Shown: one piece after another, positions 2,484-11,944 of the stretch
Numbering within the stretch: the stretch's first letter is position 1
Layout of the letters: the number at the start of each line of letters is the position of its first letter
Origin: Planctomycetaceae bacterium
Lineage (GTDB): Bacteria > Planctomycetota > Planctomycetia > Pirellulales > Thermoguttaceae
NCBI GenBank assembly: GCA_031266315.1
Contig: JAISBG010000495.1
Coordinates: forward strand, 1 to 12,278
Direction of reading: 5' to 3'
DNA length: 12,278 bases
The notes under the pieces: model-generated
Seen by the model: only the letters and a program-made list of their open reading frames with translations
Databases searched by the model: none
Told to the model about the DNA's origin: nothing
Position numbers and translations under genes: made by a program

Positions 2484-5400
2484 ATGAAAGTAAAATTACT
2501 GTTGTTTGTCGTTGCTGTTTTGTTCTTGTTCAACATTCAGGTTTTAGCCCAAGATTCAAAACTCAATCCGATTACAAATCCGACATTGGACGAGTTGCGG
2601 AAAAATTTTGAGAATCCGCATCGTGATTTTAGTACGGGACCGCTTTGGACTTGGAATGACCGGTTGACCGACGAGCAAGTTCGCGGCACGCTTCGCGATC
2701 TCGCCGGTCAACATGTGAAACAAGTTTGGGTTCACCCGCGACCCGGTTTGATGACACCGTATCTTTCGGACGAATGGTTTGCACGTTGGAAAACGGCATT
2801 GGACGAAGCGGAAAAACTTGATATGAATGTTTGGATTTATGACGAAAATTCGTATCCGAGCGGATTTGCCGGCGGTTTTGTTCCAGAAGCGTTGCCGGAT
2901 TCTCGCGGAATGGGATTGAAATTTGAGGAAGTTGAAAAACTTGATCAATGGGATAAAAATATCTGGTACGTTTTTTGTCCGCAAGATATTTTACATAATA
3001 TTTTACAAAATATTTTACAAGAAAATTCGCAAGAGAATCCGCAGGACAAAGATTTTTCGTATAAAAATATTACCGCCGAATCCAAAGCTGCCGAAAAACT
3101 CGAACCTCTACCCAACGGCAAAAAATATCTGCTCGCAAAAATTCAATACACACCGCAAGGCGGTTGGTTCGGCGGGAAATGGTATGTTGACCTTTTGAAA
3201 AAAGGTGTTACGGAAAAGTTTCTTGATATTACGTTGGACGTTTATAAAAATGTGCCGGAAATTCAGAAACAATTCGGTAAACGTGTTCCCGGAATTTTTA
3301 CCGACGAACCACATCCCGCCGGTTCTTATGTCGGAACGTGGATTACTTGGAACGAGGAAATACCGGAGTTGTTTGAAAAACGTTTCGGTTATTCCCTGAT
3401 TGATAATCTGCCGTCGTTGTCAAAAAATATCGGCGACTGGAAGAAAATACGTCACAATTATCATCAATTGATTCTCGACTTGTTTGTTGAACGTTGGGCG
3501 AAACCGTATTTTGAACGTTGCGAAAAATACGGTCTGGAATTTACGGGACATTATTGGGAACACGGTTGGCCCAACACATCGCACGGTCCCGACAATATGG
3601 CAATGTACGCTTGGCATCAACGTCCGGCGATTGGTTTGTTGATGAATAATTACAACGATAATTCACCAAACGCCCAATTCGGTAACGTCCGCAGTGTGAA
3701 GGAGTTGGCATCGATTGCGAATCAAATGGGACATTCGCGGACACTTTCGGAGAATTACGGAGCGGGCGGTTGGGATATTCGTTTTGAAGATTTAAAACGG
3801 CTCGGCGATTGGTCTTACGCGTTGGGCGTCAACACGAACAACGAGCATTTATCTTACGTAACAATTAAAGGCGCACGAAAACGCGACCACCCGCAATCAT
3901 TTTCGTATCACGCTTCATGGTTTGAAGGCTATCATGTTCTTGCGGATTATTTCACGAGATTATCGTACATGCTTTCTCAAGGTCGGCAAAAAAGCCGTGT
4001 TGTAATTATTGAACCGACAACAACCGCATGGATGTATCAAGGCGATCCGAAACTCAATGAAATTGGTCAATCATTCACCGATTTTTTAACATCAATGGAA
4101 AGAGTCCGGTCTGTCCATCATGCCAAACCCGAATACGATCTTGCTTCGGAAGATATTATTAAACGTTTCGGAAAAGTGGACGGAAAATATTTTATCATCG
4201 GTCAGGCAATCTATGAAAAAGTGATCTTGCCGCCAATGATGGAAAACCTGAATCAGTCAACTTTGGATATTTTGGCACAGTATAGTGAAAGTGATGGTAC
4301 AATAATTTGTACGGGAACTGTTCCAACATATATTGACGGTTGTAAAGTAAACAATAAATCTGACTCTAAAAATGCAACACTTATTAAAAAATTATCGGAA
4401 CGTTACGGCTCAGTTAAAAAAACAGTTTCTGAGGTAGTTGCAGAGGTCAGTGTTTTATCTGAACAACGGCGTGATGATTATTTTCGATTGAGGACAGACG
4501 ACGAATCTGCTTCGTCGGTTTTCTTTCATCGCCGACAACTAGATGATTGCGATATTGTTTTTATTTGTAATACAAATCTCACGAAGACGGCAAAAGGTGA
4601 TATTGATGTTATTCACAATCAAATTGAAGAATGGGATTTAGTGACAGGCGAAATAAGACCGCTCAATTTGTCGTTAGGAGGATTGGTCCGTATGCCCCAT
4701 ATTCACTATTTTTATAAATTTGAACTACCTCCGGCAGGAAGTGTTCTTTTGGTGCTTTCAGAAAAAACCGGTATAAAAAGGAAAGAAATCGAAACAAATA
4801 AAGACGAGAAATCTTCACCAATATCGAAAGAAGTTAAACCGCCGACGAACCCATTAAAGCAGCAACGGTTTGATTCTTTGATTATTAAAGATAATTTTGA
4901 TGCAAAAACTCAAAAAAACATCACTCCAATACCTGCGTTGAATTCTGAAACGAAAGTTCGTCGTCTTGAGGACAATGTTTTGACGTTGGATTATGTTGAT
5001 GTGAAGGTTGGCGATGAGGAGCGGAAAGATATTTACGCTTGGGCGGCAAACCGTTTTGTGTTTCAAAAACATGGCATGACAGCCGGCAATCCTTGGGATA
5101 ATCAAGTTCAGTTTAAAGATGAATTGATTACGAAAAAATTCCCGGAAAAGAGCGGTTTTGAAGCAGCCTATCATTTTACGTTGCGTGAATCAATTCCAAA
5201 TAATCTTGCAATTGTGATTGAACGTCCCGATTTGTACAAAATTTATTGTAATGACAAAGAAGTCAACGCAATTTCGGGCGCGTGGTGGCTTGATAAATCG
5301 TTTGGTAAAATTGATTTGTCCGGTGTTGCGAAAATCGGTGAGAACAACGTCAAAATTGTTGCGCAATCGATGACGATTGAACATGAACTTGAACCGGCTT

Positions 5401-7659: not shown

Positions 7660-8940
7660 ATGCCGATTCTTATTGATCAACCGGTTGTTAAGCAGCCGCA
7701 CCGAACACCGGAATTTACCGCACACGATAAGGAGATTCGAACAATTCTATGTCCGCAGATGGCTCCAATTCATTTTGCGTTGTTTCAGGCAGTTTTTGAG
7801 AATCATGGTTGTCGTTTTGAAGTGTTGCCTGAAGTTGATCGCGGAGCAGTCGAAGAAGGTTTGCGGTACGTTAATAATGATGTTTGCTATCCCGCAATTG
7901 TTGTTGTCGGGCAACTAATTCAGGCTTTGAAATCAGGAAAATATGACCCTGACCGAACTGCTTTAATGATCTCGCAAACATGCGGCGGTTGCCGGTCAAC
8001 AAACTACGCCACCTTCCTGAAAATTGCCGCTGCCAAAGCAGGATTTCATCATGTACCGGTTATTCCGTTCAGTGTTGACATTGCCAACGGCAACACCAAA
8101 GGAATTAACGTTAATTACAAAATGCTGAAAAAGATGTTTCTTGCATTTTTGTACGGTGATTTATTACAAAAACTTTCCAACTCTTGCCGTCCTTACGAAA
8201 CAGTTCGCGGGTCTGTCAACGCTTTGGTTGAAATTTGGATCAACCGGTTGCGGAAGGCAATACTGAGTAACGAAAAACATCATGTTGCAGATTTCGCCGC
8301 TCGGATTGTTCATGATTTTGATACCATCGAACTGACCGGAGAACGAACACGTCCACAAGTGGGAATTGTCGGTGAAATTCTTGTCAAATATCATCCCGGA
8401 GCCAATAACCATTTAATTTCCCTGATTGAACAGGAAGGCGGTGAAGTTGTTGTTCCGAATATTCTTGATTTTATGTTATACTGTTTGACTTCTGATGAGC
8501 AACGAAAACGGTATTCGCATGTTCCTTTTCTTGCCGGATTGAAAAGTTCTGCCGGAGTTTGGCTGATTGAACGTCAACGAAATAAGATTCGAAACATTCT
8601 CCAAAAGAGCCGTCGATTTGCTCCAATGGGAACGATTCGACATCTGATTCAGTTAGCCGAACCGATTGTTTCGACATGCAATCACACCGGCGAAGGTTGG
8701 CTTCTGACTGCCGAAATGGTCGAACTGATTGAAGAAGGTATTCCTAATATTGTTTGTGTTCAACCCTTCGGCTGCCTGCCGAATCATGTTACGGGAAAAG
8801 GCGTTCTGAAAGAATTACGTTCTCGTTACGCCAATGCAAATATCACGACAATCGACTATGACCCCGGTTCAACAGAAGTCAATCAACTCAACCGAATCAA
8901 ACTGCTCATGGCAGTTGCGTTGCGGAATTTGCCGAAATGA
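7660..8940 (+). CDS. 2-hydroxyacyl-CoA dehydratase-like / CoA-enzyme activase-related protein (COG3581-type)
   Basis: A 426-residue soluble protein that resembles the C-terminal third of the very large acyl-CoA dehydratase activase-related proteins, and the stand-alone COG3581 proteins related to 2-hydroxyglutaryl-CoA dehydratase subunits. It opens after about 25 residues with ILCPQMAPIHFALFQ (Cys31). Then come NNDVCYPAIVVVGQ (Cys76), ISQTCGGCRSTNY (Cys108, Cys111), a CNHTGEGWLLTAEM segment (Cys340) and VCVQPFGCLPNHVTGKG (Cys366, Cys372), ending in IDYDPGSTEVNQLNRIK. Several of these cysteines are good candidates for an iron-sulfur cluster, as in the dehydratases. The related enzymes need an ATP-driven activase; none lies in this window, so a partner, if needed, must be encoded elsewhere. 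The biochemical role of this subgroup is not established. No strong Shine-Dalgarno; only GAG lies just upstream of the ATG. Confidence 0.85.
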   Translation: MPILIDQPVVKQPHRTPEFTAHDKEIRTILCPQMAPIHFALFQAVFENHGCRFEVLPEVDRGAVEEGLRYVNNDVCYPAIVVVGQLIQALKSGKYDPDRTALMISQTCGGCRSTNYATFLKIAAAKAGFHHVPVIPFSVDIANGNTKGINVNYKMLKKMFLAFLYGDLLQKLSNSCRPYETVRGSVNALVEIWINRLRKAILSNEKHHVADFAARIVHDFDTIELTGERTRPQVGIVGEILVKYHPGANNHLISLIEQEGGEVVVPNILDFMLYCLTSDEQRKRYSHVPFLAGLKSSAGVWLIERQRNKIRNILQKSRRFAPMGTIRHLIQLAEPIVSTCNHTGEGWLLTAEMVELIEEGIPNIVCVQPFGCLPNHVTGKGVLKELRSRYANANITTIDYDPGSTEVNQLNRIKLLMAVALRNLPK

Positions 8941-9153: not shown

Positions 9154-9933
9154 TCAACGATGAATCCTTACGGGAACATTTAATTTGAATAAATGTTTTT
9201 TGAGTTCTGGAATTGTCGTTAATCCTGTGTGCAAAATTCCGGCAACAATGGCAGCATCAGCATGAGCAAGAACAAAAGCATCACGAAGATGTTCCGCAGA
9301 GCCTGCTCCTCCTGACGCGACAACCGGAACTCCAACCGCTTTGGCAATTCGCCCCGTAATCTCCAACTCAAAACCTGTTCGCGTTCCGTCCGCATCAACC
9401 GAATTGACTACAATCTCTCCCACTCCTAAATCAACCGCCCGCTTCGCCCATTCAACAGCGTCCAGACCGCTTCGTTCCCGAAAACCATGCGTCGTAACTT
9501 CATAACCGCTAGGAAAGTTCAACAAATCAGTTGTCGCAATCGGGTCCATTCCAAGAACAATACATTGCCGACCAAAAGCTTTGGCTCCTTCGGTAATTAT
9601 TGCCGGATTCCTGACCGCAAGCGAATTGACAGAAATTTTTTCCGCACCGGCATTGAGTACGTGTTCCATGTCCGCGAGCGAGGAAACCCCGCCACCCACC
9701 GCAAACGGAATCCGAACCGCCTCCGCCACACTCCGAACCATCTCAATATCAATCGGACGACGTTCCGCTGACGCCGTAATATCATAAACAACCAATTCGT
9801 CCGCCCCATCTTCATAATATTGATACGCCATCTCCACCGGATCACCTAAATCAATATTGTTCTTAAATTTGACCCCCTTCGTTACACGACGCTTTATCAC
9901 GTCAAGACAGGGAATAATACGGCATTTCAACAT
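9154..9933 (-). CDS. hisF: Imidazole glycerol phosphate synthase, cyclase subunit HisF
   Basis: A 259-residue (beta/alpha)8 barrel of normal HisF length. With the glutaminase HisH it converts PRFAR plus ammonia into imidazole glycerol phosphate and AICAR, a central step of histidine synthesis in the cytoplasm that also feeds purine synthesis. The sequence opens MLKCRIIPCLDV with the catalytic Asp11; Asp130 in VLGMDP is the second catalytic aspartate. Also present are the family motifs GADELVVYDITAS, FAVGGGV, NSVDADGT (Asp180) and VVASGGAG (to about 211), which form the phosphate and substrate sites. Small departures from common versions are LGMDP and VVNSVD. No other his gene is nearby, so HisH and HisA must be encoded elsewhere. 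No Shine-Dalgarno is visible before the ATG. It is divergent from the phosphohexomutase-like gene across a 600-base gap. Confidence 0.96.
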   Translation of the reverse strand: MLKCRIIPCLDVIKRRVTKGVKFKNNIDLGDPVEMAYQYYEDGADELVVYDITASAERRPIDIEMVRSVAEAVRIPFAVGGGVSSLADMEHVLNAGAEKISVNSLAVRNPAIITEGAKAFGRQCIVLGMDPIATTDLLNFPSGYEVTTHGFRERSGLDAVEWAKRAVDLGVGEIVVNSVDADGTRTGFELEITGRIAKAVGVPVVASGGAGSAEHLRDAFVLAHADAAIVAGILHTGLTTIPELKKHLFKLNVPVRIHR

Positions 9934-10094: not shown

Positions 10095-10245
10095 GACCCG
10101 CGGGGCGGTCGCGCCGGTTGAGTCGTTATTGACTCCAACAGGCAATGTCTTACCTTTTTTGATAGCAGAATATTTATGAAGGACATACCGATTGGAGTCA
10201 ATAACGACTCAACCGGCGCAACCCTTCAGCGAAGGGATTGCCCAC
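10095..10245. repeat. Hairpin-repeat pair 3 with a 28-bp perfect inverted repeat
   Basis: Two beta-type units face each other. Positions 10111-10138 are the exact reverse complement of 10192-10219, 28 bases each with 53 bases between. The right unit keeps the full hairpin: GCAACCCTTC (10218-10227), AGC loop, GAAGGG, one unpaired A, TTGC (to 10241), ending GCCCAC at 10245. The left unit has lost the outer arm; only GACC / GGTC (10095-10110) remains. Each arm also contains the small GAGTC / GTTATT / GACTC hairpin (10120-10135 in the left unit). The element lies in the divergent gap between hisF and the phosphohexomutase-like gene. No other feature was recognised between 9934 and 10094. Confidence 0.85.
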
Positions 10246-10507: not shown

Positions 10508-10540
10508 CGTATAACTATTGTTCCTAACGACAGCAGTAAT

Positions 10541-11944
10541 ATGATGCAAAGTTCGAATCCGAGTCTTTATCGTGATGAATTTATTCTTGGTCTTGTAGAA
10601 AGCGAATTGAATGAAACGCTTTACAAATCATGGGGGCAATCTCTTGCTCGAATGTTGCCGGCGGGTTCAAAATTCCTTGTTACGTCGGATTTTCGCCAAA
10701 GTTCGGAGTTGTTCAAAACGGCATTAGTGGATGGGTTGCTTTCAAACGGCATGGACGTCTTTGATTTGGGCAATGTTCCAACCAATCTGGCTTCTTATGC
10801 CATTGATTTAGTTCCGGCGAACGCTTCCGCCAGTGTAACCGGCGGCAACTTCGCTTCTGTCTGGAATGGGTTACGCTGGATCATTCCTAATTGTTCCTCT
10901 TCCATTGCCATGCAGATTGACCAACTTCGCGATGAAATGAAATCGCCTCCCGAATCTTTCGTAACAACTCGCGGAAATTACCGGACGAATAACATCGTAC
11001 CAACATGGTGTCGTTTTTTGAAGGATGTTTGGTACGATACACAACAAATTCCTTTGAAAATTATTCTCGATCCGATGTACGGCAATTGGGCTCCTTTCGC
11101 ACAAGAAGCGTTACAGACTTGCTTTTCGCAAACGTCTTTCGAATCAATTCATAACGAACCCAAAGAAGATTTCGGCGGAATGATTCCGGCATCACGACGT
11201 TGGAAATCATTATCGACGTTGTGTTCCGAAGTTGTTCGCCGCCGTGCCGATCTGGGAATCGCCCTTGAAGCCGACGCTTTTTCTTTTGCACTTGTCGATA
11301 ATCTCGGTCAACCGTTGCTTTACGAAGAAATCACTTGGATCGTATTACATTATTTGCTTGGAGAGGCAATAAACGGAGAAGTTTTTCTTCACGATGTCAA
11401 TTGTTCGGAAAAAATTATCGCCGAAGGTATTCGGTTGGGGGCTTCGCCTTGTATCGTCAAAAATTCCCATCTTGCGTTTCTTTCCAAAATGCAGGAAACC
11501 AATGCGTTAATTGGATTTGGTTTTGACGGGAGTATTTATTTTCGTGGTGTTCGCGGAAGACGTATTGTCGTATTTGCGATTTGTTGGTTCCTCGATTATT
11601 TCACAAGCCTCAAAATGCCCCTTTCGGAATGGCGAAAACGATTTCCGGCATTTTACGCAACTCCAGAACTTCGTACACCGCTGGTTTCTTTAGAAGAAAT
11701 AATTCCGCGTCTTTCCGCGGCATGGTCATGTTCTCCGTCTTCGACATTGGAAGGAGTTCGGTTTGTTGTTCCCGGCGGGCGTATCCATGTTCGTCTTATT
11801 TCGGATTTCGCCCAATTAGGTTTTCATTTCGAAACAGACCACCGATCAAGTTTACACCGAATCTTTTCAGAATGTTGCCGTGCTTTGGAAGGTCTGGATC
11901 ACCTCTCCTTTTTCCTAAAAGAAGGATTGGCAAACTGGCGGTAA
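10541..11944 (+). CDS. Degenerate phosphohexomutase-family protein (probable pseudoenzyme)
   Basis: A 467-residue protein with the length and four-domain order of the phosphomannomutase/phosphoglucomutase/phosphoglucosamine mutase superfamily. Retained features: the domain I strand and turn FLVTSDFRQSS (Asp50, Arg52) with GMDVFDLGNVPT; domain II LKIILDPMYGN (Asp177); a domain III fold ending in ALVDNLGQ; and a C-terminal domain with GVRFVVPGGRIHVR. The active-site motifs are altered. The phosphoserine loop TASHNP reads TGGNFA (Thr100-Ala105), with Gly102 at the serine position. The metal loop DGDADR reads EADAFS (243-248). The sugar motif GGExSGH reads GFGFDGS (325-331). The phosphate loop RxSxTEP reads RLISDFA (418-424). 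The frame is intact and well supplied with conserved structure, so it does not look like a decaying gene. A binding, regulatory or structural role is possible. No Shine-Dalgarno; two ATGs stand in tandem at the start. Confidence 0.8.
   Translation: MMQSSNPSLYRDEFILGLVESELNETLYKSWGQSLARMLPAGSKFLVTSDFRQSSELFKTALVDGLLSNGMDVFDLGNVPTNLASYAIDLVPANASASVTGGNFASVWNGLRWIIPNCSSSIAMQIDQLRDEMKSPPESFVTTRGNYRTNNIVPTWCRFLKDVWYDTQQIPLKIILDPMYGNWAPFAQEALQTCFSQTSFESIHNEPKEDFGGMIPASRRWKSLSTLCSEVVRRRADLGIALEADAFSFALVDNLGQPLLYEEITWIVLHYLLGEAINGEVFLHDVNCSEKIIAEGIRLGASPCIVKNSHLAFLSKMQETNALIGFGFDGSIYFRGVRGRRIVVFAICWFLDYFTSLKMPLSEWRKRFPAFYATPELRTPLVSLEEIIPRLSAAWSCSPSSTLEGVRFVVPGGRIHVRLISDFAQLGFHFETDHRSSLHRIFSECCRALEGLDHLSFFLKEGLANWR

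Follow-up and report, generated by a model that had tools for sequence, protein, structure and literature searches.

A degenerate phosphohexomutase homologue with altered active-site loops is maintained under purifying selection in a planctomycete genus

A maintained pseudo-phosphohexomutase

The window, by which we mean the whole stretch of 12,278 nucleotides of planctomycete DNA analysed here, encodes on its forward strand (10541..11944) a degenerate pseudo-PMM/PGM of 467 aa, hereafter the pseudo-mutase. The gene is maintained under purifying selection and is not decaying. It is probable, with room for doubt that extends to the binding role itself, that this pseudo-phosphohexomutase is kept as a non-catalytic protein that binds a partner. 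The second ATG, at 10544, is likely to be the true start of the gene. By descent, and by its predicted fold, the window protein falls within the alpha-D-phosphohexomutase superfamily: in profile searches it matches PF02878 and PF02879 above cut-off and PMM/PGM with an E of 1.7e-25. The same kind of search gave no match to PF02880 or PF00408 in the window protein, and the NCBIfam PgmG profile scores it at 101.9 bits against a cut-off of 600. Its structure is predicted at pLDDT 93 with four domains in the standard order, from an alignment of 31 rows of which 12 came from outside the clade and may bias the model towards the canonical fold. An earlier, sequence-only reading had noted preserved length, domain order and structural motifs and had proposed structure prediction as a check; the four-domain fold is indeed predicted intact.

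Distribution and phylogeny

Thirteen of the 21 genomes of the genus carry the gene, seven in subclade A, to which the window belongs, and six in subclade B. The six other A copies are 74-80% identical to the window protein and the B copies 39-42%. No match was found in the other 8 of the 21 genomes (69-87% complete), so that the genus does not strictly require the pseudo-mutase; the weak matches in two genomes (G006 and G004) are of the GlmM type. The subclade-A MAGs are presumably of termite-gut origin, judging from their isolate codes. Twelve additional clade members were found among further proteins (P0003, P0008 and P0010-P0019), and the scored set amounts to 25 distinct sequences: 12 of A (with P0012), 6 of B and 7 of M. 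Each of the 25 retains only 2-4 of the 17 key residues. Orthologues with the same losses, which the sequence-only reading had suggested looking for, thus occur both in genomes of the genus and among further proteins. Orthologues with canonical motifs, which it had named as a sign that this copy alone is decaying, are absent from the genus genomes searched.

On the tree, A, B and M share one branch (25 rows, support 100/100). The first tree was built without P0002, P0004-P0007 and P0009, which are copies of genome rows. A protein from another genus (G137) joins the clade with support 100/99 and keeps 5/17 key residues; one from a third genus (G083), very divergent and on a long branch, joins less surely (94/85), keeps 4/17, and falls in an unresolved fork once the active-site columns are removed. 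The tree with these two proteins used a chosen subset of rows, and that without active-site columns omitted 10 of the 66 aligned rows. A profile search for degenerate relatives, with the best 8000 candidates scored, returned 112 proteins at E up to 0.001, of which 69 were new; among the 24 of these whose motifs were read, P0071, from a B genome, is a further clade member, and additional members may exist beyond the candidates scored.

Active-site loops

Phosphohexomutases have four functional loops, which hold the phosphoserine, the three metal Asp, the sugar Glu/Ser and the phosphate Arg/Ser/Asn/Thr (PMC6443537, excerpt), and Ser108, the Mg residues 242-246 and Lys285 of AlgC are named in an excerpt of PMC3369874. 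Just three of the 17 key residues are kept in the window protein, Asp245, His310 and Arg418. The remaining AlgC numbers used here (R20, H329, R421 and others) follow the usual AlgC numbering or PDB titles and were placed by alignment.

All sites below lie on the forward strand. Leu16 (10586..10588) stands at the place of AlgC Arg20, and Leu is found in 21 of the 22 members that reach this column. In the former phosphoserine loop (i), residues 99-106 (VTGGNFAS; 10835..10858), the Ser108 position is occupied by Gly102 (10844-10846). The former metal loop (ii), residues 243-248 (EADAFS; 11267..11284), has kept Asp245, which is present in 25/25 members, and has lost the third Asp, as have all the others. 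Asn287 (11399..11401) aligns with AlgC Lys285. In the former sugar loop (iii), residues 326-331 (FGFDGS; 11516..11533), the Ser327 position is acidic, being Asp or Glu in 23/25 members, and the His329 position is Ser in the window protein. Further on, the clade-specific Arg341-Ile342-Val343 (11561..11569) replaces, by alignment, the canonical Asp-Asp-Gly/Ala of domain 3; position 341 is R in 25/25 clade members, and D in 25 of 27 sister rows and in 12/12 AlgC-type rows. The former phosphate loop (iv), residues 418-422 (RLISD; 11792..11806), reads Arg418, Ile420, Ser421 and Asp422, with Asp422 at the Thr425 position. Across the clade the Ser423 position is Ile in 21/25 members and the Thr425 position Asp in 19/25 and Glu in 1/25, while Arg418 is present in 24/25 and an Arg or His at the second phosphate Arg position in 25/25. 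His310 is present in 10 of the 12 subclade-A members. The alterations first read from the window's letters (Gly102; Glu243, Asp245 and Phe247; Gly327 and Asp329; Arg418 as the sole phosphate-loop ligand left) are therefore real by alignment.

The losses are common to the whole clade. None of the 25 members has the third Asp, Arg247, the Glu, Ser or His of the sugar loop, Lys285, or the Ser or Thr of the phosphate loop. The catalytic Ser column holds Ser in only one of the 24 members covering it (G012), where the Ser aligned at 102 is followed by Asn-His instead of His-Asn; the His-Asn-Pro context is found in none. At most loop positions the residues of subclade A are not those of subclade B. 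The clade has invariants of its own, W108, F249, G336, R341, W349 and D352 among others, and its invariant polar residues include R335, R341, D352, W364-R365 and D245.

A migrated nucleophile was considered. P0012 and P0016 have TGGSHSP, with Ser one column later, and no such column extends through the clade: from column 97 to 108, Ser occurs in at most 15 of the 24 members covering the loop at any column. Column 98 holds it in 12/12 A, 1/6 B and 2/6 M members and column 106 in 10/12 A, 3/6 B and 2/6 M, so there is no clade-wide replacement; a replacement Ser confined to subclade A may exist. A Ser elsewhere in the pocket, which the sequence-only reading had said would, together with a full DxDxD site, overturn it, therefore does not appear in loop (i) as a column common to the clade.

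A pseudoenzyme is defined by the absence of conserved catalytic motifs in sequence analysis (PMC10211241, excerpt), and in the alignment such motifs are missing from the clade. Because the nucleophile and the metal and phosphate ligands are lost, the phosphoserine cycle should, on the established mechanism, be impossible; judged from its residues, the window protein almost certainly cannot run the phosphoserine/bisphosphate mutase cycle.

Other mutases in the same genomes

Each of the 21 genus genomes has two to four further PF02878 matches besides the pseudo-mutase. A PGM type was detected in every carrier but G008 (12 of 13), a GlmM type in all except G012 and G014 (11), and a third type in all except the window's own genome (12), which is 66% complete. 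Best match served to assign the PGM types of the carriers and eight of the GlmM types, and frame length the other three GlmM types. In the window's genome both the PGM type, truncated by a contig end, and the GlmM type have canonical motifs. The third-type mutase is present in 16 of the 21 genomes as a divergent protein with frames of 510-557 aa, and its 16 proteins have the motifs TGSH and DGDxDR, a sugar loop EANGG and a phosphate loop RxSGNAPE. Since PGM, GlmM and third types are present in most carriers, the pathway need not depend on the pseudo-mutase. The separate mutases that the sequence-only reading had proposed to look for are thus encoded elsewhere in the carrier genomes.

Selection and constraint

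The frame is open, with zero internal stops, in all 13 carrier genomes. By the Nei-Gojobori method, with synonymous differences unsaturated (median pS 0.54 and 0.60), dN/dS has a median of 0.148 in subclade A (0.113-0.187, 21 pairs) and 0.209 in subclade B (0.157-0.299, 15 pairs). For the third mutase the corresponding values are 0.087 in A (15 pairs, the window's genome excluded) and 0.098 in B (15 pairs). The constraint on the pseudo-mutase is thus weaker, its dN/dS being 1.7-2.1 times that of the third mutase, and identity between A and B is 40% for the pseudo-mutase versus 66% for the third mutase. The earlier proposal of a retained pseudoenzyme rather than debris holds up well: the losses are common to orthologues, dN/dS is 0.11-0.19 over the 21 subclade-A pairs, and the fold is predicted intact.

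What is conserved is not the former active site. In the clade the mean entropy is 1.46 bits over the 17 key columns versus 1.38 over the rest, as against 0.04 versus 1.16 in 19 intact members of the sister clade described below and 0.05 versus 1.54 in 12 AlgC types. For a wider set of 32 columns versus the rest, the values are 1.21 versus 1.40 in the clade, 0.05 versus 1.20 in the intact sisters and 0.19 versus 1.58 in the AlgC types. The 17 key columns of the clade are no better conserved than the rest, and constraint therefore acts on something else.

Sister clade and repeated loss

Outside the genus, members of a sister clade are encoded in 20 genomes of the family and in metagenomes. Twenty-seven rows were scored, G030, which is split over two contigs, being left out. 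Seventeen rows have 17/17 key residues, the partial P0075 has 14/14 and G021 has 15/17, whereas six lineages (8 rows) keep 9-12 and are called eroded here, under a threshold of at most 12/17 that we chose ourselves. They are G031 and G065 (one genus), G022 (9/16), P0020, P0021 and P0023 (91% identical to one another), G060 and G072. The five eroded rows with DNA have open frames ending in a stop, the start of G022 being missing at a contig end. Because the catalytic Ser is retained in 7 of the 8 rows, eroded sisters may be partly active. Their key columns are relaxed too (entropy 1.12 versus 1.00 bits for the rest), and dN/dS is 0.17 for the eroded pair G031-G065, 0.13-0.26 for four pairs of intact sisters and 0.19-0.34 for three mixed pairs.

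On the tree without active-site columns, the eroded/intact label changes 7 times on the best tree and 7-8 times in bootstraps; the strongly supported branches force only 3 changes, and 20 of the 53 inner branches are open. Judged from these alignments, loss of catalytic residues is not a single event, and other lineages of the family appear to have lost residues separately. Repeated loss with retention of the protein suggests that the binding role is older than the loss, since a non-catalytic function that the protein already had would explain why it was kept. A wider account, to which we give slightly less than even chances, is that catalysis has been eroded about seven separate times in a mutase orthologue of one planctomycete family, and the protein retained each time, because of an older non-catalytic function shared with the still-active forms. 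The window's clade would then be the fully released form, with a rebuilt cleft in which acidic side chains stand where sugar and phosphate ligands were and the Asp-Asp pair of domain 3 has an invariant Arg for its first Asp; Arg341 might pair with these new acidic residues.

Gene neighbourhood

In the window the gene is preceded by hisF, which is divergently transcribed (9154..9933, reverse strand) and adjoins the orthologue in 5 of the 7 subclade-A genomes; G014 has its hisF on a separate contig, and no hisF turned up in G013. Between hisF and the pseudo-mutase lies an inverted repeat (10107-10138 / 10192-10223) with 32-nt arms, 97% complementary and 53 nt apart, and no such pair is visible in the alignment of three orthologous intergenic regions. 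The stretch just 5' of the start codon is conserved in four aligned subclade-A orthologues (window about 10524-10544; L040 about 4445-4466), and is palindrome-like in L040. Elsewhere in the window, 7660-8940 encodes a protein with a weak match, below cut-off, to PF09989, a CoA-activase-associated domain.

Subclade B has other neighbours. A UbiA-type prenyltransferase and a BRCT-MerR-TPR gene lie upstream of the pseudo-mutase in five genomes (L047 10028-12473), and in G019 this pair is on a different contig. UbiA is found in 6 of the 21 genomes of the genus, and these are precisely the carriers of subclade B, a pattern that descent explains; the BRCT-MerR-TPR gene is also present in genomes that lack the pseudo-mutase. 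The neighbours in G137 and G083 differ again from those in A and B. With no neighbour common to the loci of A, B, G137 and G083, these loci give no common pointer to a binding partner, and the neighbourhood was set aside as a guide to function.

Around the sister mutase, an FGGY sugar kinase lies directly upstream in G034, G029 and, in pieces, G068 (L049 10479-11966, L052 8439-9905, L141 1054-1446). Downstream, at 12 loci (L037 384-1865, L054 4304-5809 and others), is a protein with an N-terminal zinc ribbon and a hydrophobic C-terminal part; in G031 one gene intervenes. Co-occurrence with the zinc-ribbon family is uninformative, because profile matches (E up to 0.001, many partial) are found in 119/119 family genomes.

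Possible functions

Catalysis and classical ligand binding fail to explain the purifying selection, which leaves a protein-binding role as the best remaining reading. With moderate likelihood, the pseudo-mutase would be a protein-binding module, acting as a structural or regulatory subunit, and the catalytic ancestor would, with similar likelihood, already have had this binding role; catalysis could then be lost several times and the protein kept, because binding pre-dated the loss.

The narrower idea that it serves as a regulatory subunit in a mixed oligomer with an active mutase from the same cell, most plausibly the third mutase, seems improbable to us. The third mutase does occur in 12/13 carriers versus 4/8 non-carriers of the genus, but the numbers are small and the genomes incomplete, and genome size confounds the comparison since the four non-carriers without it are small assemblies (2.5-3.6 Mb). 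The pseudo-mutase and the other mutase genes are moreover on different contigs, and the P. aeruginosa relative is monomeric. Slow decay, in which a dispensable relic is becoming a pseudogene, would account for a protein that evolves faster than the third mutase, has no special constraint on its former active site and is without a match in 8/21 genomes; it is nevertheless very improbable, given open frames in 13/13 carriers, dN/dS far below 1 in 36/36 within-subclade pairs (0.11-0.30), a fold predicted at pLDDT 93 and a clade that dates back at least to the A/B split, with identity down to about 40%.

The sequence-only reading had suggested a sugar-phosphate sensor, in which the cleft would still bind a sugar phosphate or a related metabolite and signal to a partner. 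The predicted four-domain fold would still form a cleft, and Arg418 (24/25), the Arg/His at the second phosphate Arg position (25/25), Asp245 and His310 (10/12 A) are kept; PGM5, an inactive relative, still binds glucose-1-phosphate (PMC7761743, excerpt). PGM5, unlike the clade, retains its binding residues, whereas here Ser423, Glu325, Arg247 and His329 are absent in 25/25, Ser327 has become Asp or Glu in 23/25 and the Thr425 position is acidic in 20/25. Acidic residues in the former phosphate pocket should, lacking Mg, repel phosphate. With the phosphate-binding Ser/Thr and sugar-binding Glu/Ser gone and two of these places acidic, the sensor idea is disfavoured and in our view unlikely, if less so than the other alternatives. 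A re-made active site that catalyses a different reaction in the old fold is about as improbable as the mixed oligomer. The invariant polar residues of the clade (R335, R341, D352, W364-R365, D245) would fit it, and Slr1334, a bacterial superfamily member, makes Glc-1,6-bisphosphate (PMC9426568, excerpt). Yet within the clade the old key columns show no extra conservation (1.46 vs 1.38 bits for the rest), loop (i) has no Ser, Cys or His column common to the subclades, A and B disagree at most of the loop positions, and the mechanism of the superfamily is described as requiring a conserved seryl residue that is phosphorylated (PMC9426568, excerpt), which is absent here.

Comparison with known systems

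Catalytic loss with selection retained in this planctomycete group suggests a second, non-enzymatic job. Repeated, parallel loss of catalysis in a protein whose scaffold persists would amount to a natural experiment in which the enzymatic and the second role are told apart; whether structural or regulatory functions are common in bacterial mutases, as in GlmM, would then be directly testable. The name phosphomannomutase, applied by one source to several clade proteins, appears to be wrong for the clade. Among the matches listed in the open-licence literature, covering titles and the starts of abstracts, there was no bacterial pseudoenzyme of the superfamily; the clear non-catalytic case among them is PGM5, from vertebrates. 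Herring PGM5 (aciculin) keeps a phosphorylatable Ser, the metal site and glucose-1-phosphate binding, its inactivity being ascribed to subtler changes (PMC7761743, excerpt), whereas the clade has lost nearly all of these. The pseudo-mutase is thus not a PGM5-like inactive protein with intact substrate and metal binding residues, since its binding residues are replaced. Parafusin pp63 of Paramecium (PDB 1kfi) and PRP1 of Toxoplasma are mutase-like, secretion-linked and both eukaryotic; PRP1 is termed a phosphoglucomutase orthologue, and its deletion is dispensable for the lytic cycle (PMC5705807, excerpt). The Glc-1,6-bisphosphate synthase Slr1334 is a bacterial superfamily member that carries out another reaction, but is catalytic (PMC9426568, excerpt).

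From AlgC/PgmG-type PMM/PGM the window protein differs in that all four functional loops are changed. GlmM, unlike the pseudo-mutase, is an active enzyme. In Bacillus subtilis its mutase scaffold binds and blocks the c-di-AMP cyclase CdaA (PMC8573169, excerpt), a precedent for the mechanism proposed here.
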